This document shows, in pieces, positions 11,025 to 46,355 of a stretch of DNA of 64,000 nucleotides. The number at the start of each line of letters is the position of its first letter. The stretch's first letter is position 1. The stretch spans positions 124,001 to 188,000 of the forward strand of contig NZ_JAQMHX010000008.1 in NCBI RefSeq assembly GCF_028331445.1. The letters are read 5' to 3'. Source of the DNA: Candidatus Phyllobacterium onerii. Lineage in GTDB: Bacteria; Pseudomonadota; Alphaproteobacteria; Rhizobiales; Rhizobiaceae. Under the pieces are notes generated by a model. That model had not been told where the DNA came from and did no database searches. It worked only from the letters and a program-made list of their open reading frames with translations. A program made the position numbers and the translations under genes.

Positions 11025-12101
11025 CTATTCGTTGTCGCCGAGAATTGCCGCACAGACCGCCTCCGTGACCGTGTCCGTCGTGGCATTGCCGCGAAGGTCC
11101 GGTGTGTGAAGTGCCGGGTCAGCGGTGACCCGTTCGATGGCGCGCATGAGCCTTGCCGCGGCCTTGGGCTCGCCGAGATGTTCGAGCATCATCACCGCCG
11201 ACCAGAATGTACCCACCGGGTTAGCAATGCCCTTGCCGGTGATATCGAAGGCGGAGCCATGGATGGGTTCGAACATCGAAGGAAAGCGCCCTTCGGGATT
11301 GAGGTTTGCGGTCGGTGCAATGCCGATCGATCCGGCGAGTGCGGCGGCTAGGTCAGAGAGAATATCGGCATGAAGGTTTGTGGCGACGATCGTATCGAGC
11401 GATCGCGGATTGAGCGTCATGCGTACGGTCATGGCGTCGACCAGCATCTTGTCCCAGGTGACGTCGGGAAAATCGCCCGCAACCTCCCGGGCGATCTCAT
11501 CCCACAATACCATGCCATGGCGCTGAGCATTCGATTTGGTGACGACGGTCAGGAGCTTGCGCGGCCGCGATTGCGCCAGCTGAAAGGCAAAGCGCATGAT
11601 GCGGGATACGCCGGCGCGCGTGAAGATCGAGACTTCCGTAGCCACCTCTTCCGGCAGGCCCCGGTGTGAGCGGCCGCCTTGGCCGGCATACTCTCCCTCG
11701 GAATTCTCGCGGACGATGACCCAATCGAGATCCTCGGCAGTAACACCTCGTAACGGGCTTTCGATACCCGGCAGAATGCGGGTCGGGCGTACATTGGCGT
11801 ATTGGTCGAAAGGCTGGCAAATGGCGAGGCGCAGGCCCCATAGCGTCAAGTGATCAGGAACGTCTGGCGCACCCACCGCACCGAAGTAGATAGCGTCGAA
11901 AGCTTTCAATTTGTCGATGCCGCCCTCGGGCATCAGGACACCATTCGCCTTGTAGAAATCCGATCCCCAAGGGAAATTCTCGACATCGACAGTGAAATTG
12001 CCATCGCGGATTGCGCAGGCATCAAGGACACGAAGCCCGGCGGCAACAACCTCCTTGCCGATGCCATCACCGGGAATGGCTGCAATCTTGTGTGTCTTCA
12101 T
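11025..12101 (-). CDS. Tartrate/D-malate dehydrogenase-like (isopropylmalate dehydrogenase family), paralogue
   Basis: A 358-residue paralogue of the downstream dehydrogenase. The ATG ending at 12101 is preceded by AAGGAG at good spacing; an upstream in-frame start at 12131 adds a proline-rich stretch and is less likely. It keeps GDGIGKEVVAAGLRVLD, VRPTRILPGIESPL, WVIVRENSEGEYAGQGG, and EPIHGSAFDITGKGIANPVG. In that last loop the common SAPD is SAFD. It is the first gene of a three-gene unit reading away from the operator at 12171-12194. Two tandem TtuC-like enzymes suggest either two stereoisomers or two sequential acids, which is inference. Confidence 0.87.
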   Translation of the reverse strand: MKTHKIAAIPGDGIGKEVVAAGLRVLDACAIRDGNFTVDVENFPWGSDFYKANGVLMPEGGIDKLKAFDAIYFGAVGAPDVPDHLTLWGLRLAICQPFDQYANVRPTRILPGIESPLRGVTAEDLDWVIVRENSEGEYAGQGGRSHRGLPEEVATEVSIFTRAGVSRIMRFAFQLAQSRPRKLLTVVTKSNAQRHGMVLWDEIAREVAGDFPDVTWDKMLVDAMTVRMTLNPRSLDTIVATNLHADILSDLAAALAGSIGIAPTANLNPEGRFPSMFEPIHGSAFDITGKGIANPVGTFWSAVMMLEHLGEPKAAARLMRAIERVTADPALHTPDLRGNATTDTVTEAVCAAILGDNE

Positions 12102-35740: not shown

Positions 35741-37453
35741 GTGAAGATCCTGCGTCGATCCGCGGACCGCTGGGGCATCGCTGCCATCCCGGCATTTTTA
35801 CGGCGTCTTGGTCTTATGCTTCCGGACGGAAAAGCGTTGCCGCCCGACGTGCCGATGAACGCCCCTGCACTCCCGCTTTTGCCGTATGGTCTCTTGTTGC
35901 TCATGAGTGTTGGCGTCATCATAACGGTGTTCGTCGTAGGCGTTGTCGAGAGCCGGGACCGGATGGTCTTGCAATCGAAAATCCAGTTGCGCCAGAAGAC
36001 TGCCCTGCTCGAAGCCTATGTCAGCAAGATACTCGAGGCGAACGACATGGTGCTTCAGGGTATTTCGTCCGAGGTTGAACCGATGTCATGGCCGGAAATT
36101 GCTTCCTCAGAGCGTCTGATCAGATTTTTGGCTACCCAGAAGCAATTTCTGAAGCACTCGGGCGTTATTGCCCTTGTAGACCGCGACGGCAAACTCGTTT
36201 CTACCAGCGAAGGCCATCGCAGTAGTTCCCTTGATGTGAACGACCGGGATTATTTCCGCTATCATCGGGATCATCCATCGGACGTCACATTTATAGGCGA
36301 CCCGTTGATTGGCCGCGTGTACGGGCAACCGTCCTTGACTATGAGCAAGGCTCTACGCCAGCCAGACGGGAAGTTCGACGGCTTGATACTGATCACGATG
36401 CCGATCGAGTATTTCACCAGATTGTTCGATGGAGCGGCTTCTCCCTCGGACGCTGCTCAATTCCTGCGCGGGAACGGGGAAGTCGTGGTGAACGTCCCGT
36501 TCTGGGAAGGCGGCGCAATCGTACCTGATTGGTTTCGACAGGCGACAGCCGGGAATCCGGTGTCGGGTGAGATGCACCACGTTTCTTCCTCGGAAGGCAT
36601 CGACCGGCTGGTGGCCTACCGAAAGGTCGAAGGTTTCCCATTCTACGTAACCTACGGTATTGACGAGAATGCGCTGCTTGCTGGCTGGCGGCAGTCGGTA
36701 CGCGTCTACGGTACCGTTCTGGCTATCGCCCTTGCAGCGTTTCTCGCCACAGCCTGGCTGGCACGACGCCGTTCGATTGCGTTGATGTATTCGAACGAGT
36801 CGCTGCGCGAAGTCAGCGAGCGCCTTCTGGTTTCACAGGATGAGGAGCGCCGTTCCATTGCCAGGGATCTTCACGATTCCACGGGCCAACACCTGATCGG
36901 CGCGGCCATGGAATTGGCGAACGTAAAATCCTTGCTGCCCGATAATGACGGCGAAACCTCGCGGGCGCTGGCGCGCACATCGAAACTCATTTCGCAAAGT
37001 AATGAGGAGCTTCGGACACTATCCTATCTGTTGCATCCTCCGATGCTTGACGAATCCGGCCTTCCAAATGCTCTTGAGCTACTCGTCGTGGGTTTTGAGG
37101 AGCGAAGCGGACTGGAAATCGAACTGAGGGTCGATCCCGTATTGGCGACAAAACGACCCCCGCCGGATGTTGAACTCACCATTTTCCGTATTGTCCAAGA
37201 AGCGTTGACCAATATTTACCGTCATTCCCACGCCGCCAAGGCAACGATCAGGCTGATCCGCCAGGGGAGCGAGCCCGATACGATCCTGTCGCTCACCGTC
37301 AAGGATGACGGTGTCGGCATCGAAAGGCGAAAGCGCCGGAATGTCGGCGTTGGTCTTTCCGGCATGGAGGCGCGGCTTCGCCCGCTCGACGGCACGATTG
37401 ATATTTCGACTGGAAGAAAGGGCACCACGATTTCGGTGAGAGTGCGCGGCTAG
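35741..37453 (+). CDS. NarX-type sensor histidine kinase
   Basis: A 570-residue membrane sensor. Helix one (LPYGLLLLMSVGVIITVFVVGVV, residues ~45-67), a periplasmic Cache-like domain (about 80-315, with SEGHRSSSLDVNDRDYFRYH), helix two (YGTVLAIALAAFLATAWLARRR), a HisKA_3 box with phospho-acceptor His378 in ARDLHDSTGQ, and an HATPase_c domain with NIYRHSHAAKA and DDGVGIERR. It starts at GTG 35741 after GGGAG. It has no response regulator beside it; the NarL-type regulator at 48907-49539 is the only candidate partner in the window. The stop TAG overlaps the convergent gene's stop. Confidence 0.9.
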   Translation: MKILRRSADRWGIAAIPAFLRRLGLMLPDGKALPPDVPMNAPALPLLPYGLLLLMSVGVIITVFVVGVVESRDRMVLQSKIQLRQKTALLEAYVSKILEANDMVLQGISSEVEPMSWPEIASSERLIRFLATQKQFLKHSGVIALVDRDGKLVSTSEGHRSSSLDVNDRDYFRYHRDHPSDVTFIGDPLIGRVYGQPSLTMSKALRQPDGKFDGLILITMPIEYFTRLFDGAASPSDAAQFLRGNGEVVVNVPFWEGGAIVPDWFRQATAGNPVSGEMHHVSSSEGIDRLVAYRKVEGFPFYVTYGIDENALLAGWRQSVRVYGTVLAIALAAFLATAWLARRRSIALMYSNESLREVSERLLVSQDEERRSIARDLHDSTGQHLIGAAMELANVKSLLPDNDGETSRALARTSKLISQSNEELRTLSYLLHPPMLDESGLPNALELLVVGFEERSGLEIELRVDPVLATKRPPPDVELTIFRIVQEALTNIYRHSHAAKATIRLIRQGSEPDTILSLTVKDDGVGIERRKRRNVGVGLSGMEARLRPLDGTIDISTGRKGTTISVRVRG

Positions 37454-37803
37454 TCGGGAGTACGTTGAAGTTCCCCGATGTCGCGTTGATCGCGCTCTAG
37501 AAAGAAGTTGAGGAAGGTGCGGACCACTGCGATCGCCGCAATGCGGCCGATGTCGTCCCAGGCCGGAGTGATCGAGGTTTCGAGTATATCGGCTGCAAGC
37601 TGGAACGTCAGTCCCGCCACCAGCCAACGTGAATAGCGCATCCACACGTGCCGGACCGCATGATGCCCTTCCGGGTGCGAAAACATTACCCTGGTGCCGT
37701 TGATAAATGCATCCACCGTGCCGATCGCGATGATGATCAACGCGAAAATGTCGATGATCGAGACGATTGGTTCCGTAAGCTGGATCAACAGGTCCCTGAG
37801 CAT
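37450..37803 (-). CDS. DUF1622 small membrane protein
   Basis: A 117-residue protein with three hydrophobic segments (IVSIIDIFALIIIAIGTVDAF, WLVAGLTFQLAADILET, IGRIAAIAVVRTFLNFFLERD), the pattern of the DUF1622 family of unknown function. It lies 8 bp downstream of the formylglycine-generating enzyme gene on the same strand, so may be the last gene of the sulfatase cassette. Confidence 0.72.
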   Translation of the reverse strand: MLRDLLIQLTEPIVSIIDIFALIIIAIGTVDAFINGTRVMFSHPEGHHAVRHVWMRYSRWLVAGLTFQLAADILETSITPAWDDIGRIAAIAVVRTFLNFFLERDQRDIGELQRTPD

Positions 37804-37811
37804 CGCGCGTC

Positions 37812-38783
37812 TTATCCTTCGCTACCAAGCCGGACGATACAGCGGAAACCGAGATGTGAGATCGAGGTATCGACGGGCTGCGACATGCGCGCCGCCGGTC
37901 TGTAACGCCGGCAATAGTTCGGTGCGCAAAGGTGCGAGCCGCCCTTGGTCACCCTTCGCGCGACCTTCATAGAAGGTTGACGCGGATCAAAGCTTTCCTC
38001 AAGCGTGCCGCCACGCGGATTGTCCGCTGTGCAACAGGGGCTCGTTATCTTGCCGTGCTCACGATACCAGTCAGTCGTCCACTCCCAGACATTGCCTGCC
38101 ATATCGTAAAGACCATAGCCATTGGCCGGAAATGACCCCACCGGAGACGTATACTCGTATCCGTCGTCGAGCGTATTCCGATAAGGAAAGTTGCCCTGCC
38201 AGGTATTAGCCATGTGCTTTCCGCCCGGGGTAAACTCATTGCCCCAGACATATTCGGCCCCGTCCTGGCCACCGCAGGCGGCGAATTCCCATTCCGCTTC
38301 GGTGGGCAATTCCTTGCCGACCCAGCGGCAATAGGTTTCGACATCCTCATAGGCGACATGGACGACGGGATGATCGGAGAGTTTCTTGATTGTGCTGGCG
38401 GGACCGCGCGGGTTGCGCCAATTGGCACCCCGCACATACACCCACCAATTGAAATGATTGCTCATGTCGACTGGGGACGAGGGTTTCTTGAACATTGTCG
38501 AGGACGGCGCCAGCATTTCCGGCAAAGCGCCCGGATAGTCTTCTGGGTTGGCCGGCCTTTCAGCCAGCGTCACATAACCGGTCGCCTCGACAAAACGGGC
38601 AAAGTCGCGGTTGGTCACGGTAAACTTGTCCATCCAGAAACCATTGACCCGGACCCTGTGCGCAGGGGCTTCCTCGGGGTAGTGGTTGTCCGAACCCATG
38701 CGACATTCGCCGCCTGGAATCCACACCATGTTGTCGAAGGGAGCGGTCCTGGGTTGCATTCGTTCCGGTTGGTCGAGCATCAT
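37812..38783 (-). CDS. Formylglycine-generating enzyme (sulfatase-activating, SUMF1 type)
   Basis: A 323-residue FGE-sulfatase domain protein that oxidises the active-site cysteine of a sulfatase to formylglycine, using O2. It starts with MVWIPGGECRMGSDNHYPEEAPAHRVRVNGFWMDKF and has the family core GYGLYDMAGNVWEWTTDWY. Both catalytic cysteines are present, Cys286 and Cys291 in GGSHLCAPNYCRRYR, so it is a true FGE and not a generic SUMF-fold protein. The chosen start (38783) overlaps the upstream transporter stop as ATGA and follows CCGGAGATG. Its client is almost certainly the arylsulfatase two genes upstream. Confidence 0.92.
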   Translation of the reverse strand: MMLDQPERMQPRTAPFDNMVWIPGGECRMGSDNHYPEEAPAHRVRVNGFWMDKFTVTNRDFARFVEATGYVTLAERPANPEDYPGALPEMLAPSSTMFKKPSSPVDMSNHFNWWVYVRGANWRNPRGPASTIKKLSDHPVVHVAYEDVETYCRWVGKELPTEAEWEFAACGGQDGAEYVWGNEFTPGGKHMANTWQGNFPYRNTLDDGYEYTSPVGSFPANGYGLYDMAGNVWEWTTDWYREHGKITSPCCTADNPRGGTLEESFDPRQPSMKVARRVTKGGSHLCAPNYCRRYRPAARMSQPVDTSISHLGFRCIVRLGSEG

Positions 38784-39646
38784 TTCATCTCCGGACGCAG
38801 CGCATGAATGCGAGTGCGCCATCTCACGTAGGGTATCGAGACGATAGCACCAATGACAAGATGGTAAAGCACGACCGCCATGACGGCCTTCTCGTCGGGA
38901 AAATTCAAACTTGCTATGGCAAGCGCAACACCAGGATGCCGCGTTCCCGTGGCGAGTGCCAGCACCGTACGGTCATCCGGATCGGGACCACCAAGGAAGT
39001 GACCGAGGGCAACGCCGATAAGCGTGAACAGCACGAGCATGATGACAATTCCGTTTCCGATCAACGCCCAGATGGCATGCGAGGCGATGAACAGGACCGG
39101 TACGACTGCGACGATCAAAAGCAGCGTTGCAAACCGGGAGATCGGGCGTTCGATGCGGCTTGCAAGGTCCGGCGCAAGATGGCGGATGATGACACCCGCT
39201 ACCAACGGAACGATTATGGAGATCAGCACAACGGAAGCGATAGCGCTTGCGGGTTCGTGCATATCGATGTTGAACGAACTCCCGAGGAGACTGATGGCGA
39301 GGGGAACGAGAACAATTGAAACCAGTGCCGTCGCTACCAACAAGCCGATCGTATAGGAGGCCGAGCCGCCGGCCTTTTCCTGCTTTCCCGGTAGCACCGG
39401 CGGAACCGGAGAAATGGCAAGCGTAACAAGCGCGATCTTGATGGCCGGATGGAGATTGAACAGCAGCGACAACAGCACCGCAACCGCGAGCATGAAAATA
39501 TTCATGGAGAGAATTGAACGGACGAAAAGACTTGGCCTGCGGAACAGGTACGTCACGTCATCGAAGGTCGCACGCAATCCAAGTGCGAAGACAATGAGAA
39601 ACATGCTCGCATTGATCGCGAATCCGATGATCTGCGCCGGCGTCAT
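38780..39646 (-). CDS. Bile acid:sodium symporter (BASS) family transporter
   Basis: A 288-residue membrane protein with about nine helices, beginning MTPAQIIGFAINASMFLIVFALGLRATFDDVTYLFRRP. The conserved TLAISPVPPVLPGKQ and ATGTRHPGVALAIASL segments correspond to BASS-family crossover regions. It lies between the arylsulfatase and its activating enzyme. Import of a sulfated organic anion or export of a product is a fair guess, not shown. Confidence 0.78.
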   Translation of the reverse strand: MTPAQIIGFAINASMFLIVFALGLRATFDDVTYLFRRPSLFVRSILSMNIFMLAVAVLLSLLFNLHPAIKIALVTLAISPVPPVLPGKQEKAGGSASYTIGLLVATALVSIVLVPLAISLLGSSFNIDMHEPASAIASVVLISIIVPLVAGVIIRHLAPDLASRIERPISRFATLLLIVAVVPVLFIASHAIWALIGNGIVIMLVLFTLIGVALGHFLGGPDPDDRTVLALATGTRHPGVALAIASLNFPDEKAVMAVVLYHLVIGAIVSIPYVRWRTRIHALRPEMK

Positions 39647-39675
39647 GTCTCTTTCCCTCGCCGATTGACGGGTGG

Positions 39676-39701
39676 CGGGCGGCTGTCTTGAGAAAGCCGC
39701 C
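39676..39701 (-). terminator. Intercistronic hairpin after the arylsulfatase gene
   Basis: GGGCGGCT (39676-39683) and AGCCGCCC (39694-39701) form a perfect 8-bp stem around a 10-nt loop, about 12 bp past the minus-strand stop of the arylsulfatase gene. Without a T-run it may only reduce read-through into the transporter gene. Confidence 0.42.
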
Positions 39702-39712
39702 CGTTATAATCT

Positions 39713-41290
39713 CTAATTGAACTTGCCGCTGGTAGCTTCGGACATTTTTGCGAGTGCGTCATCAATCGTGAAGCTCGCTGCCTTCTGACTAGGCGGAAAA
39801 TCCTTGAACGTCGCTGCGAATCTGTCGGCAATCGTGTAGGCACCGAACAGGATATAATCGTGGTGGAGGAACCAGTCATAGTATGAGTTCGATGTAATGT
39901 CGGCGCGTTCGTAGGGGTCGGTCCTGAGGTTGAACAGCTTCGGAAGTCGCAGCGGTATGAACGGCTCCGCCCATACCTGCAGTGTGCCCGGGCAACGCTG
40001 TTCCATGAAGACGACTTTCCAATTGTCGTAGCGGATACCGAGAACATCGCCGTCGTCACTGAAATAGACGAAGAGCTTGCGGGGACTGCTAGCCTCTTCA
40101 CCCGTGAGGTAGGGCAGCAGATTATAACCGTCGATATGGTTCTTGAATGGCTTGCCGTTGGCGGTGTAGCCCTTCTTGAGCTTGTCCATCACGTTGGGAT
40201 CGCCGGCCATGGCAAGGAAGGTTGGCAGCCAGTCATGGTGTTGTACGATCTCGTTTGAAACAGATCCCGCCTTGATCTTTCCTGGCCAACGCACCAGCAG
40301 CGGGACGCGGAATGCACCTTCCCAATTGGTATTCTTCTCGCTCCGGAACGGTGTCATGCCTCCATCCGGCCAAGAATTCATGTGGGGTCCGTTGTCGGTC
40401 GAATACATGACGAACGTATCTTCGGCGATGCCAAGCTCGTCGAGATAGTCGAGCATGTCGCCGACGTTCTTGTCATGATCGATCATCGTATCATGATAGG
40501 GAGACTGCCAGCGTCCGGCCTGTCCGAGACTCGACTTTTTCGTATGTGTGAACAGGTGCATGTGTGTGGTGTTGAGCCAGACAAAGAACGGCTTGCCGGC
40601 GCTGTTCTGGCGCTTGATGAAATCCTTGGCCGCATCGACGAAGTCTTCGTCGCAGGTTTCCATGCGTTTGGTGGTCAGTGGTCCGGTGTCCTTGATCTTC
40701 TGCTTCCCCACTTTGCCCCAGCGCTTTTCTTCCGTGGGATCGTCCTTGTCCTGCGCCCAGGAATGGAGCACGCCACGCGGTCCAATGCTTGCACGCAGGC
40801 CGGGGAAGTCTTTCTCCGGGAAGTAGTCGTACATTTCCGGCTCTTCCTCGGCATTGAGGTGATAGAGATTGCCGTAGAATTCATCGAAACCATGGACCGT
40901 CGGCAGGAACTTGTTGAGATCTCCCAGGTGGTTCTTGCCAAATTGTCCTGTCGCGTAGCCCTGGTTTTTCAAAAGATCGGCAATCGTCACAATCTCGGGT
41001 TGTAGCCCGGCCGATGCACCTGGAATGCCTACCTTGGATAGACCGGTACGATAGGCGCTCTGTCCGGTGATGAAGGAAGACCTTCCGGCGGTACACGACT
41101 GCTCACCATAGCTGTCGGTGAACATCATACCTTCCTTGGCGAGGCGATCGATATTCGGCGTCTGATATCCCATCAGGCCGCGGCTGTAGCAACTCAGATT
41201 GGAGATGCCGATATCGTCGCCCCAGATAACGAGAATATTGGGCTGACCGCCAACCTTCTTTGGTTTGCCGCTCTTTTTATCTTTAGCCAA
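39713..41290 (-). CDS. Arylsulfatase (formylglycine type I sulfatase)
   Basis: A 525-residue sulfatase. The start is TTG 41290, because AGAGGAG lies 8-9 bp upstream and longer starts would run into the preceding gene. It has the metal-binding DD pair at residues 25-26 (ILVIWGDDIG), the formylglycine motif Cys66-Thr-Ala-Gly-Arg (a CxAxR variant), GYATGQFGKNHLGD, and the second metal site YSTDNGPH. No signal peptide is visible (lysine-rich, hydrophilic start), so it should act in the cytosol on an imported sulfate ester. Its activating enzyme and a transporter lie directly downstream. Confidence 0.93.
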   Translation of the reverse strand: MAKDKKSGKPKKVGGQPNILVIWGDDIGISNLSCYSRGLMGYQTPNIDRLAKEGMMFTDSYGEQSCTAGRSSFITGQSAYRTGLSKVGIPGASAGLQPEIVTIADLLKNQGYATGQFGKNHLGDLNKFLPTVHGFDEFYGNLYHLNAEEEPEMYDYFPEKDFPGLRASIGPRGVLHSWAQDKDDPTEEKRWGKVGKQKIKDTGPLTTKRMETCDEDFVDAAKDFIKRQNSAGKPFFVWLNTTHMHLFTHTKKSSLGQAGRWQSPYHDTMIDHDKNVGDMLDYLDELGIAEDTFVMYSTDNGPHMNSWPDGGMTPFRSEKNTNWEGAFRVPLLVRWPGKIKAGSVSNEIVQHHDWLPTFLAMAGDPNVMDKLKKGYTANGKPFKNHIDGYNLLPYLTGEEASSPRKLFVYFSDDGDVLGIRYDNWKVVFMEQRCPGTLQVWAEPFIPLRLPKLFNLRTDPYERADITSNSYYDWFLHHDYILFGAYTIADRFAATFKDFPPSQKAASFTIDDALAKMSEATSGKFN

Positions 41291-41324
41291 CTTGTAACTC
41301 CTCTTTGAATGATTACTCCAGGAA

Positions 41325-41807
41325 TCAGCTGCCCGTTCCGTCCTGAAATGGGCCGATATCAAAGACCATGCTTGCGACAGCGAAGAGACCGATAAGAAGC
41401 AGGATTACTGCTGTCACCAGTGTATACGAAACCGGATAGCGGCTCTCCCCGTGAACAATACCATCAGCCACCATTTCCTCGCGGGTACGTCGAAGTTCGA
41501 GCATGAACTGCGTGTGATAGATGATGCCGATCACAAGCATGCATATGCCGAGAAGGACAAGCGCCAGTCCGAAACTGCGCGGTGCCCCGGCATGGGTGAG
41601 TGTGCCGGCATCGCGCAACTTCTCGAAGAACTGGAATATTGTAAATCCAAAGCCGATCAGTGAGAGGGAAGTGCGTATCACCGACATCAAGGTGCGGTCG
41701 GCGCTCATGCGGGTCCGCTGGAACGACATTCCAGTACGACGTGCGGACAAGTCCACCGAAATCACGTCGGACGGAGATTTTGAATTCGCATGTTCCATGA
41801 AGATCAT
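41325..41807 (-). CDS. DUF202 membrane protein
   Basis: A 160-residue protein carrying the DUF202 signature (SADRTLMSVIRTSLSLIGFGFTIFQFFEKL), then two more helices (FGLALVLLGICMLVIGIIYHTQFM and VSYTLVTAVILLLIGLFAVASMVF). It is the likely first gene of the sulfatase cassette, 34 bp ahead of the arylsulfatase start. Start uncertain between 41807, 41798 and further upstream. Function of DUF202 is unknown. Confidence 0.72.
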   Translation of the reverse strand: MIFMEHANSKSPSDVISVDLSARRTGMSFQRTRMSADRTLMSVIRTSLSLIGFGFTIFQFFEKLRDAGTLTHAGAPRSFGLALVLLGICMLVIGIIYHTQFMLELRRTREEMVADGIVHGESRYPVSYTLVTAVILLLIGLFAVASMVFDIGPFQDGTGS

Positions 41808-42111
41808 TGGCCTTGTTCGTCGCGAGCACGTTCGCCACTGGAATGCACGTTTGTAAGTACGTAACGGTAACAAAGGCTGGGGCAGAACGCGCGGAGCGAC
41901 ACCTCCACTCGATAATGATCAGAATATTTTCCGCCCCTTAGGACCTGTCCCCGCGGTCTTTACAGTAACGTACTCCCGCGGCGAGCATCAATTATGCACT
42001 ATTGTCCGACAGAAACCGGGCGTTCTGCACAACTGCCGGTTCGCCTGCCTTTTCGCGGCATATAACTCGAATGGATTAGTTTACGACGGGAGCGGAGGTT
42101 CAGCATCGGCA
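41808..42111. other. Intergenic region, 304 bp, with GTAAC-type motifs
   Basis: No gene is supported here. It holds the promoter region of the DUF202/sulfatase unit, the 41853-41871 motif cluster and a related sequence TTACAGTAACGTACT at 41960-41974. Otherwise nothing recognisable. Confidence 0.5.
41853..41871. promoter_or_regulatory. GTAAC-repeat motif upstream of the DUF202/sulfatase unit
   Basis: GTAAGTACGTAAC (41853-41865) followed by GGTAAC. Read on the minus strand, toward the gene starting at 41807, it is GTTACGTACTTAC, identical over 13 bp to 49608-49620 and followed in both places by five bases and TGCA. It lies 46-58 bp ahead of the start codon. Probably a shared regulator site. 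Confidence 0.55.
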
Positions 42112-42378: not shown

Positions 42379-42530
42379 CCAATCAATCTGACGTAGCTCT
42401 TTGTTTCCTGATCAATCCTGTTTAAACTAAGTGTCTCAGTATAATTCCGGTGCAACCTGGGGTATTCACCCTATGGCTTCTTGGCCTGTTCCGTTCAATT
42501 CTGTTCCAGGCTGAAGCACGGGGGTCTGCC

Positions 42531-44276
42531 ATGGAAGTTGACGTCAATATCGACGCAACGGAAACCGAAGAGGTCACCGAACAGGAGGCGAAGCAGGAAT
42601 TGGACAGGCTCTTGTCCGATCCCCAGTTTCACTCGACCGATCGCAACAGGAATTTCCTTCGATTTGTAGCCAGCGAATTGTTCGAGGGTCGTGCTGCTGC
42701 GGTGAAGGCCTATACGATCGCCGTCGATGTGTTCGGTCGCCCCTGCAGCTTTGATCCCACCACGGATCCAATTGTCCGCATAGAAGCGACACGGCTTCGC
42801 GCCTCTCTTGCCCAATATTATGAGGCTCACGCCGAAGAAGGCAGCGTCCGCATCGAGCTGCCGCGCGGACGCTATATTCCTGTTTTTACCAAGGCCCCAC
42901 CTCAGACTGAAACTCTCGACGAGGCCGACCTTCTTGATGCACCCGAAATCGGGAGTACAAATTCCAGCTGGAAGAGCAGGGTCTTTGATCGACGGCTCGT
43001 TCTTGCAGGACTTGTAGCGGTCGCTTGTGGTTTCCTGTGGTTTCTTTCCGTAAGGGGCCCTGTTTATTCGGAAAAGCCAAATGTTGCCATTGAAATGAAA
43101 TTGGCCGGTGACCATACGGACATCGAGGCAGGGCTCATCCGCGATTATCTGATGACGGCCCTGTCGCAGTATCAGACGCTCAAGCTTGCGGCAGGAGACA
43201 CGGCGTCGGAAACGGACGGAATCCGATCGGTAGCCGGGTCCCTGTTTGGTTCCGAAAGTCGAATGGATACTCGCTATCATGTGATCCTCAAATATCACCC
43301 TGACGATCACGACCGTGCGGTGTGGTGGCAGGTTGTCAATCCTGCGACGGGAGAAGCCTTGCGTTCTGGAGTCGAGCGCGTCGAGATGGGCAGGAGGCCG
43401 GGTATCGACGTTCGCTACGAACTGATTACGGACCTCGCAAACCGGTTCGTCGGCACACGCGGCGTGATCAACAGCCTGGAGTTGACGCGTGAACTGAGGT
43501 CGCCGACGTTTGGCAATGGCTGCGTTCTGCGGTCTGCCGTGGCTCTCGAACAGCTTGATACAGGCCTGTTACAAGAGGTGCAAACTTGCCTTGGTACATC
43601 GCTGGTGGACGCACCGAACAATCCAGACATCAACGCCGAACTCGCAATCGTCAATCTTGAGCTGGACGCGCCTGAAGCGCCGACCGAATTGACTGCGCAG
43701 GCACTGACGCTGGCAAATAAAGCCGTTTCGCTCGCCCCCATGTCCGACCGCGCCGGATATGCGCAAATGCTGGCACAATTCCGCAATGGTCAGACGGAAG
43801 CGGCGTTCGTGTCCGGATATCGTGCAATGGGACTCAATCCCGGCAATAGCCTCATCCCGGCCCGGCTAGGAGCTATGCTATTCGCCGTAGGCCGATGGGC
43901 GGAAGGTGTGGGAATGGCAGTCAAAGCCGGGATGGTCGATGGCGCCGCGCCCAGCGATGCCGGCCTCACGCTTGCGCTTGATGCTTACCGGCGCGGAGAA
44001 TTTGCGGAAGCGCTGCTTCGTGTGCAGCAGATGGGCAGGTCGGAAAACTATATTGCCAACATTCTCGAACTTGCGGCAGCGGGCCAGATGAAAAATGCCG
44101 CAGATATAAACGAAGCGACAAAACAGCTGAACGTCAAGCGCAAGCACTTCTCCGCGTCGTTCCGCTCCGATATGGCGGCCCGCCACTATTCGCCGGAGAT
44201 CGTCGACCAGCTTGGAGCCGGCTTGACGAAGGCAGGTTTTGTTCTGCCTGCTCCAGTGGCTGACGCATCCAACTAA
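42531..44276 (+). CDS. Membrane-anchored TPR protein with N-terminal DNA-binding-like domain
   Basis: A 581-residue protein. Residues ~15-125 carry the domain RLLSDPQFHSTDRNRNFLRFVASELFEGRAAAVKAYTIAVDVFGR...FDPTTDPIVRIEATRLRASLAQYY, common in alphaproteobacterial proteins often labelled adenylate cyclase, although no cyclase domain is present here. One membrane helix follows (LVLAGLVAVACGFLWFLSV, ~159-177), then an envelope-side part and TPR-like alpha-helical repeats. The ATG at 42531 is preferred to the GTG at 42450. It may couple cytosolic regulation to the envelope; function unproven. Confidence 0.7.
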   Translation: MEVDVNIDATETEEVTEQEAKQELDRLLSDPQFHSTDRNRNFLRFVASELFEGRAAAVKAYTIAVDVFGRPCSFDPTTDPIVRIEATRLRASLAQYYEAHAEEGSVRIELPRGRYIPVFTKAPPQTETLDEADLLDAPEIGSTNSSWKSRVFDRRLVLAGLVAVACGFLWFLSVRGPVYSEKPNVAIEMKLAGDHTDIEAGLIRDYLMTALSQYQTLKLAAGDTASETDGIRSVAGSLFGSESRMDTRYHVILKYHPDDHDRAVWWQVVNPATGEALRSGVERVEMGRRPGIDVRYELITDLANRFVGTRGVINSLELTRELRSPTFGNGCVLRSAVALEQLDTGLLQEVQTCLGTSLVDAPNNPDINAELAIVNLELDAPEAPTELTAQALTLANKAVSLAPMSDRAGYAQMLAQFRNGQTEAAFVSGYRAMGLNPGNSLIPARLGAMLFAVGRWAEGVGMAVKAGMVDGAAPSDAGLTLALDAYRRGEFAEALLRVQQMGRSENYIANILELAAAGQMKNAADINEATKQLNVKRKHFSASFRSDMAARHYSPEIVDQLGAGLTKAGFVLPAPVADASN

Positions 44277-44596: not shown

Positions 44597-44906
44597 CGGT
44601 AAGCCTGCTTCAGTATTTTGCCGGAATGGGCGCGAGAAAAGCCTTCAGGCAACAAAGATGCGTCGAGGCCGAATTTCTTGCAACGATGTTACTGTAACAT
44701 CGTTGCTGCAGGCGCTATTTTGGACCAGCATCGCCAAGGGCACGGGGTTGCCTCCCTTCCCCTTGCCCCGCCCGGGCGGGACCGGCGATTGACGAATTCG
44801 CTCTCCCTTGCACCCACCGCGAAGTCGGGCAGTTACGGACGCGCTCGGGCCCCCATATAGTCGACGGAACTGTGAACTTTCGCTGCCGGAACAGGAGTTT
44901 GCGATA
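44597..44906. other. Intergenic region, 310 bp, with two palindromes
   Basis: Divergent control region between the small exported protein (minus) and the lytic transglycosylase (plus). It holds the 27-bp palindrome at 44680-44706 and a GC palindrome CCCGCCCGGGCGGG at 44767-44780. No gene seen. Confidence 0.5.
44680..44706. promoter_or_regulatory. Perfect 27-bp palindrome
   Basis: The arms GCAACGATGTTAC and GTAACATCGTTGC are exact reverse complements around a single central T. The core GTTACTGTAAC resembles the GTTAC repeats at 41853 and 49608, and TTACAGTAAC at 41960. It lies in a divergent promoter region, so a dimeric regulator's operator is likelier than a terminator. Confidence 0.6.
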
Positions 44907-46355
44907 ATGCCCAAGTTGTCTCTTGTTCGTGCACTTTTCCGGCTGGTGGCGCTGGTCTCCTGTATTCTGGCAGTGGAAGCTCACTCAGCAGAAAAAAGCC
45001 TGATTCACCAACATCTGCTCGACCTCGATGGCATGATGCAGCGGCGGATCGTGCGGGTTCTTGTCCCATACAGCAAGACGATCTACTTCATCGACAAGGG
45101 CAAGCAATATGGTACAGCCGTCGAGTTTGGCACGGCGCTGGAAACTGCGCTCAATATCGGCAGGAAAAAAGAGATAAACCGTGTCCATGTCGTTTTCATC
45201 CCGACAGCGCGCGACCGGCTGTTGCCTGCGCTGAATGAAGGGTTGGGCGATATCGTCATGGCCAATCTGACGATAACGCCTGAGCGCCTCAAACAGGTCG
45301 ATTTTACCATTCCCATCTATGACAAGGCCAGTGAGGTTCTCGTCGCCAGTCCTTCCTCCGATGAGGTTTTCCATCTCGACGATCTCTCTGGCAAGCAGAT
45401 CGCGGTGCGTGAGACGAGCAGCTATTACGAGCATCTTCTAAAGCTGAACCAGGACCTGAAGTCGCGCGGCAAGGACGAGATCAAGTTACAGATAATGGAC
45501 GAAAACCTTGAGGATGAGGATCTCCTCGAAATGGTAAACGCCGATCTGCTGCACTATACCATCGTCGACCAGTACAAGGCTGCGATCTGGTCGACGATTT
45601 TCACCGATATCAAGGTACGCGACGACATCGAGATTTCGAGCGACGGCCAGATCGCCTGGGCAATCCGCAAGAACAGCCCCCAGCTCAAGAAAGAGCTGGA
45701 CGTTTTTGTTGCCGCGCATCGCGTTGGCACTGCCTTTGGCAATATTCTGAGGAACACTTATTTCAAGAGCGACCGGATACTGCAGCGCGCCTATTCGGGC
45801 GACGACGTGGAAAAATTCAAACGGCTTGTCGAGATTTTTCGCAAGCACGGGAAAACCTATTCGTTCGACTATCTTATGCTGATGGCGCAAGGCTACCAGG
45901 AATCGAAGCTCGACCAGTCAAAACGCAGCCCGCGCGGCGCCGTGGGCATCATGCAACTTTTACCGGCGACGGCCCGGGACAAGGCGGTTGGTATCGATGG
46001 CATCGACAAGAATGAGGACCGTAACGTCGAGGCTGGGTCGAAATATTTGCGCTATTTGATGGATACATATCTCGACAATCCGGGAATGAATGAGCGCGAC
46101 AGACAATTACTGGCTTTCGCGGCTTATAATGCCGGCCCCGGAAACCTGAAGAAGTTCCAGGACAGGGCTGTGCAGCTCGGCCTTGACCCGGATATCTGGT
46201 TCGGCAATGTCGAAAATGCCGCCGCCGCTATCGTCGGTCGAGAGACGGTGCAATATGTGGGGAATATCTACAAATACTATGTCGCATATTCGATGCTGGT
46301 TGATCGGGTGCACGAAAATGCCAATGCCCTAAGCGTCGGAGCCAAGGGAGGCTAG
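44907..46355 (+). CDS. Membrane-bound lytic transglycosylase F-like protein
   Basis: A 482-residue periplasmic protein with a signal peptide (LSLVRALFRLVALVSCILAVEAHS). It has an N-terminal family 3 solute-binding domain (residues ~50-275; RIVRVLVPYSKTIYF, LGDIVMANLTITPERLKQVDFTIPIY) and a C-terminal SLT domain with catalytic Glu332 in QGYQESKLDQ, then RGAVGIMQLLPATA and FAAYNAGPGNLKKF. This is the MltF layout, cutting peptidoglycan between MurNAc and GlcNAc. ATG at 44907 follows AGGAG. No outer-membrane lipobox is seen, so it may be soluble. Confidence 0.88.
   Translation: MPKLSLVRALFRLVALVSCILAVEAHSAEKSLIHQHLLDLDGMMQRRIVRVLVPYSKTIYFIDKGKQYGTAVEFGTALETALNIGRKKEINRVHVVFIPTARDRLLPALNEGLGDIVMANLTITPERLKQVDFTIPIYDKASEVLVASPSSDEVFHLDDLSGKQIAVRETSSYYEHLLKLNQDLKSRGKDEIKLQIMDENLEDEDLLEMVNADLLHYTIVDQYKAAIWSTIFTDIKVRDDIEISSDGQIAWAIRKNSPQLKKELDVFVAAHRVGTAFGNILRNTYFKSDRILQRAYSGDDVEKFKRLVEIFRKHGKTYSFDYLMLMAQGYQESKLDQSKRSPRGAVGIMQLLPATARDKAVGIDGIDKNEDRNVEAGSKYLRYLMDTYLDNPGMNERDRQLLAFAAYNAGPGNLKKFQDRAVQLGLDPDIWFGNVENAAAAIVGRETVQYVGNIYKYYVAYSMLVDRVHENANALSVGAKGG

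Follow-up and report, generated by a model that had tools for sequence, protein, structure and literature searches.

How does a sulfate ester reach a sulfatase that stays inside the cell? A cytosolic sulfatase needs an entry route for its ester, and for Pseudomonas AtsA, which we take to be a cytosolic Cys-type arylsulfatase, the linked transport genes are presumably those of an ABC uptake system. The locus described here, on contig 8 of the 6.0-Mb genome of Candidatus Phyllobacterium onerii, likewise combines a Cys-type sulfatase that appears to be cytosolic with a transporter, but offers a candidate carrier of an unexpected type: a protein of the BASS fold, accompanied by DUF202 and DUF1622 proteins instead of ABC components. 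We read this row of genes as an accessory operon that may serve the intracellular use of sulfated organic anions, with the BASS-fold protein as the importer, and put the probability of this reading at slightly under one half. In the following, the window denotes the whole stretch of DNA that was analysed, 64,000 nucleotides in length.

Open reading frames and Pfam matches in the window reveal an operon-like row of five genes on the minus strand, in the order DUF202, sulfatase, BASS, formylglycine-generating enzyme (FGE) and DUF1622, with intergenic distances of 34, 66, -4 and 8 bases. The DUF202 gene, encoding a small membrane protein (PF02656, 50 bits), occupies 41325..41873 and probably starts at an ATG at 41807. 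The gene for the 525-aa sulfatase lies at 39713..41290, with a TTG start preceded by AGAGGAG, and that for the 288-aa transporter at 38780..39646. The stop codon of the transporter gene and the start codon of the FGE gene (37812..38783; PF03781, 294.5 bits) share the bases ATGA, and the FGE start is preceded by GGAG; a longer FGE reading, from 38822, is possible. The row ends with a 117-aa small membrane protein of the DUF1622 family (37450..37803; PF07784, 71 bits). All five proteins score above the respective Pfam cut-offs, and the five frames are open and their motifs intact, which rules out a pseudogene in the window. The sequence-only reading had described just such a same-direction cassette with short gaps; the coordinates that it gave, 37450-41807, are roughly right, in that the DUF202 frame reaches 41873 and its ATG at 41807 yields that end. 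The end of the DUF1622 gene overlaps by 4 bases with the end of a plus-strand histidine kinase gene (35741-37453), whose product has a cache-like domain below the Pfam cut-off, and a kinase also adjoins the cassette in Phyllobacterium trifolii.

The sulfatase falls into PF00884 (184 bits, cut-off 25) and aligns with solved arylsulfatases, best with 7aj0 (E 2e-50). Like other type I (formylglycine) sulfatases, which are arylsulfatase A-like, it has the motif cysteine, Cys66 of C66TAGR70, at the position and in the CxAxR context claimed before, together with the catalytic residues: R70 is present, as are D25, D26, K119, H121, H243/H245, D299, N300 and K319, which we take to be metal and sulfate ligands. 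In a relative from another genome (G378; L208 7703-9310), the motif reads STAGR instead of CTAGR, a Ser-type motif within a Cys-type branch. The FGE matches solved FGEs over nearly its whole length (E 3e-75), shows no notable difference from the FGE/SUMF1 family and has both of its active-site cysteines, C299 and C304 in the 336-aa reading, aligned with those of the solved enzymes, as had been stated of the activator. From these family relationships, we infer sulfatase and formylglycine-generating activity, respectively.

The cassette had also been called self-contained, which proves too strong. PF00884 matches occur at 13 places in this genome (two, on contig 35, overlap and could belong to a single gene), FGE matches at two, one of them outside the row, and four further sulfatases have 47-59% identity to the one in the row; two, located on contigs 3 and 18 (L073, L075), start without a signal peptide. 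Consequently, the row is not the sole sulfatase set of the organism, and its FGE may act on other enzymes as well. Moreover, some genomes with such sulfatases lack a row-type BASS gene, as detailed below.

Relatives of the BASS gene are rare. Counting the genome of the window, we found them at E<=1e-20, a threshold that misses more distant members, in 6/398 genomes of a phylum sample, 6/199 of a family sample and 3/385 of a class sample. The two other genomes listed under the same genus yielded none at this threshold, and four named Phyllobacterium records carry one: the nearest named copies are those of P. trifolii, Phyllobacterium sp. KW56 and P. bourgognense (93-98%), and a further one lies on a plasmid of P. 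zundukense. A collection made by transporter searches comprised 25 BASS genes in 24 loci, which we merged into 20 groups, the five Phyllobacterium copies forming one and two near-identical copies another; of 15 plasmid records with a relative, 7 were opened. The groups include Pseudaminobacter, Paraburkholderia and the cyanobacteria Leptolyngbya, Sphaerospermopsis and Nostoc.

Within 6 kb of the BASS gene, a sulfatase ORF is found in 13 of the 20 groups (in L051 a 129-aa fragment, in L068 an ORF of 362 aa), and 11 of these 13 have it on the BASS strand. By chance, about 2-4% would be expected for each group (about 2-3% from the 13 sulfatase places of the 6-Mb genome of the window), so that the return of a sulfatase in 13 of 20 groups from a search with the transporter alone rules out a chance neighbourhood. 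The row is more than a product of chance also because it, or parts of it, repeats across other families and phyla. FGE, DUF1622 and DUF202 genes each occur within 6 kb in 8/20 groups (DUF202 in one of them on the opposite strand only), and in 8/20 groups FGE and sulfatase both lie near the BASS gene on its strand; in 7/20, none of the four partners is found within 6 kb. The composition varies as well: in Leptolyngbya, DUF202 and BASS domains are fused in one protein of 480 aa; in Paraburkholderia, a radical-SAM sulfatase maturase adjoins the sulfatase in place of an FGE; in Enterovirga, the BASS gene adjoins a sulfatase-like fragment; and on a Nostoc plasmid (L058), FGE, a 786-aa sulfatase and BASS stand beside genes for alkanesulfonate uptake and a monooxygenase. 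The class of sulfatase differs among groups, several having one of about 780 aa. The row is accessory, and in P. zundukense (L052) it is borne on a 394-kb plasmid, where the sulfatase sequence falls into two pieces and the ORF for FGE is a short one; no gene is listed there for either, in a collection whose gene table is incomplete. The DUF1622 gene of P. bourgognense (L049) matches in two short pieces only and is likely broken.

Seen from the other components, the association is looser. When loci of other genomes were collected on the basis of similarity to the sulfatase, none of the 58 held a BASS gene, so that most relatives of the row sulfatase appear to do without one, and two BASS-bearing genomes of the phylum sample (G226, G526) have no close sulfatase, only other sulfatase genes. 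DUF1622 occurs in 29 of the 398 phylum-sample genomes, including all six with a BASS relative (that of the window among them), and its neighbours in this sample showed no common theme. Among the matches listed from a limited literature collection, none could be recognised, by its title or the start of its abstract, as an account of this row.

No hydrophobic 15-mer precedes the core of the row sulfatase, which points to the lack of a Sec or Tat signal, in agreement with the sequence-only reading; the assignment was made by a hydropathy criterion rather than with a trained predictor. In a part of PMC3920027, Cys-type sulfatases are said to be typically cytosolic, a statement that the many signal-bearing Cys-type sulfatases found here do not fit as a general rule. 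Using the longest ORFs, we classed CTAGR sulfatases by the 15-residue stretch of highest hydrophobicity ahead of the core. Among 75 of them, 15 of the 16 beside a BASS, DUF202 or DUF1622 gene lack a signal peptide, compared with 6 of the 59 others (Fisher 3e-10), the remaining 53 having Sec- or Tat-like N-termini; the two sets were sampled differently, the first mostly by transporter searches, the second by sulfatase searches. One entry (L181), whose longest ORF extends upstream of the likely ATG, was corrected by hand; uncorrected, the counts without and with a signal are 5 and 54 outside cassettes, and 15 and 1 inside. Thirty further entries were left out (fragments, sulfatases of the ~780-aa class, full-length sequences that missed the pattern, and the P. 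zundukense copy, which is broken). By eye, seven CTAGR and one STAGR sulfatase among these have a signal-like N-terminus, all outside cassettes, so that dropping them did not favour the import reading.

Five of the six signal-less sulfatases outside cassettes belong to genomes with a BASS gene elsewhere (two in G000, one in G277, two in G547), and the sixth to a genome (G403) whose BASS relatives are two canonical ones only. On the genome level, a signal-less sulfatase is present in 4/4 BASS-bearing genomes of the phylum sample versus 1/33 others (p 8e-5; 37 genomes with 59 sulfatases after 7 entries were dropped; threshold 1.05, applied to the last 75 residues); this table covers 37 of the 45 sulfatase-bearing genomes, several with some of their sulfatases only, and G226 and G526, being without a close sulfatase, stand outside it. 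The sequences are related, and on their tree about six changes are needed for either trait; owing to these few independent lineages, tree-controlled paired tests had at most three informative pairs, with one against in a few pairings, and none was significant. A strict dependence of cytosolic sulfatases on a row-type BASS protein is ruled out by two genomes without any BASS relative at E<=0.001, G135 and G068, the latter with a signal-less sulfatase beside DUF202 and FGE. Outside the CTAGR comparison, four ~780-aa sulfatases beside BASS genes, two in L069 and one each in L071 and L056, likewise lack a signal at the start (three of the four as judged by eye, in a class without a comparison set). 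In the cassettes of Leptolyngbya (L054) and Nostoc (L058), the sulfatase beside the BASS gene has a signal-like N-terminus.

The transporter is predicted to adopt a BASS fold with a basic cross-over. It matches PF01758 (SBF) with 56.5 bits (cut-off 24.3), and the best of five models built from a six-sequence input (pLDDT 81, pTM 0.80; mean pLDDT of the other four, 43 to 62) superimposes on bacterial ASBT with a TM-score of 0.80 and a Z-score of 29 (rmsd 2.8 over 275 residues; Z 26-29 among the bacterial ASBT structures) and also matches NTCP. Its helices break at 79-84 and 235-237, the site of the cross-over in BASS proteins. The row-type proteins thus resemble the Neisseria and Yersinia ASBT, NTCP and PanS in fold and broken helices, but differ from them in the residues at this site. 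In a part of PMC10645422, Ser114 and Asn115 are given as sodium ligands of Neisseria ASBT, and pantoate is placed between the N-termini of TM4b and TM9b, contacting Asn265. An alignment of the 25 BASS genes, including that of the window, in a register that agrees with a separate pairwise alignment, has Asn at the Asn115 site in 0/25 and Pro in 23/25, Ser at the Ser114 site in 2/25, and His (19/25; H237 in the window) or Asn (6/25) at the Asn265 site. Presumably, Glu260 and Gln264 are further sodium ligands of the Neisseria protein; their sites have Glu in 0/25 and Gln in 0/25, the latter being Arg in all 25 (R236). In addition, 22 of the 25 have Lys or Arg at position 87 or 88 (K88). With the Asn, Glu and Gln of the sodium site replaced, the usual sodium coupling is unlikely.

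We propose that the row would work as follows. The FGE would convert Cys66 of the sulfatase to formylglycine in the cytosol, where the sulfatase would remain and hydrolyse sulfate esters. By an elevator movement of its fold, the BASS-fold protein would bring in the sulfated anion, probably with the help of the DUF202 and DUF1622 proteins, whose roles we guess; that the direction is inward and the substrate an organosulfate are likewise guesses. Sodium ions order the helix cross-over in ASBT; here, the invariant arginine (R236), the His/Asn (H237) and, in most proteins, the Lys/Arg at 87/88 may take their place and hold the anionic group. Coupling would then differ from the usual sodium symport and, at a guess, be proton-driven or an exchange. 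An importer role accounts for three findings: FGE and sulfatase genes keep the transporter company, signal peptides tend to be missing from the sulfatases concerned, and the cross-over is basic. More tentatively, the Arg-type proteins could be a sodium-independent branch of the BASS fold that evolved into organosulfate importers, each forming a membrane complex in which DUF202 and DUF1622 are subunits, and exported sulfatases could lose their signal when a genome gains the importer; we regard this wider proposition as somewhat doubtful.

These observations have to be weighed against other roles for the transporter. The simplest reading of the earlier proposal, which saw the BASS protein as a possible importer of a sulfated steroid-like or organic anion, would be a bile-acid-type symporter with the usual coupling to sodium that supplies an arylsulfatase of the common kind. 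The SBF match and the clear fold suit it, but the Asn, Glu and Gln missing at the cross-over of all 25 proteins are kept in Yersinia ASBT and in both canonical BASS proteins of G403, and the score against TIGR00841 (bile acid:sodium symporter subfamily) is 65 bits, far below the cut-off of 326; we consider such a symporter very improbable. What gains support from the comparison is an importer for a cytosolic sulfatase, by virtue of the link between BASS genes and signal-less sulfatases, whereas sodium-coupled, bile-acid-like uptake does not, and nothing points to steroids. It is conceivable, if unlikely, that the protein instead moves a reaction product, exporting sulfate or taking up or exporting the small anion freed by desulfation, with the basic cross-over, devoid of sodium ligands, as a small-anion site. 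The signal-bearing sulfatases in the two cyanobacterial cassettes, which the import of intact esters leaves unexplained, are better accommodated by a product carrier, as it suits the cytosolic and the exported enzymes of cyanobacterial cassettes alike, and the presence of a CLC-type channel gene in L070 and, in the window, of a bestrophin-like gene would fit as well. Fold neighbours past ASBT and NTCP also include the bicarbonate transporter SbtA (Z ~17), but a common fold shows no substrate; an ester outside the cell would still have to enter before a cytosolic enzyme could act on it, and import is the simplest reading of the correlation between the cassette and the absence of signal peptides.

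Alternatively, BASS, DUF202 and DUF1622 may constitute a module of the membrane or envelope that is simply carried along with sulfatases by accessory replicons; the substrate of the sulfatase would then be an internal metabolite. Several observations would be in keeping with this: DUF1622 stands mostly alone elsewhere, with a sulfatase ORF within 6 kb at 5 of the 30 places fetched out of 31 (two of the five in one region of G277); single cassette loci adjoin mechanosensitive and chloride channels, HAD hydrolases or DUF1254/DUF1214 proteins; and the BASS genes in two loci opened from six haloarchaeal records have no sulfatase. Yet the same-strand adjacency of BASS, FGE and sulfatase in 8/20 groups, cyanobacteria included, exceeds what joint travel needs, and we deem this explanation rather improbable.

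Should the Arg-type proteins indeed be organosulfate importers, such a complex would let bacteria keep their sulfatases in the cytosol. The row also gives reason to look at DUF202 and DUF1622, two uncharacterised families of small membrane proteins.

Several other genes of the window and of the related loci deserve mention. On the plus strand, 42450-44276 encodes a 608-aa protein without a Pfam match, by eye perhaps a regulator, with relatives in five loci with such sulfatases (the window, L047, L050, L059 and L070). A protein with a solute-binding domain and a lytic transglycosylase domain (MltF-like; 44808-46355, plus strand) has relatives near the cassette in the window, L047, L064 and L071. 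DUF1254/DUF1214 proteins are encoded near sulfatase or FGE genes in L070 (2258-3673) and L131 (9200-10693), with a relative in L126. Finally, ARAGORN reports a tRNA-Ala with anticodon AGC at 11252-11336 on the plus strand; this anticodon is unusual in bacteria, and the match may be a false hit.
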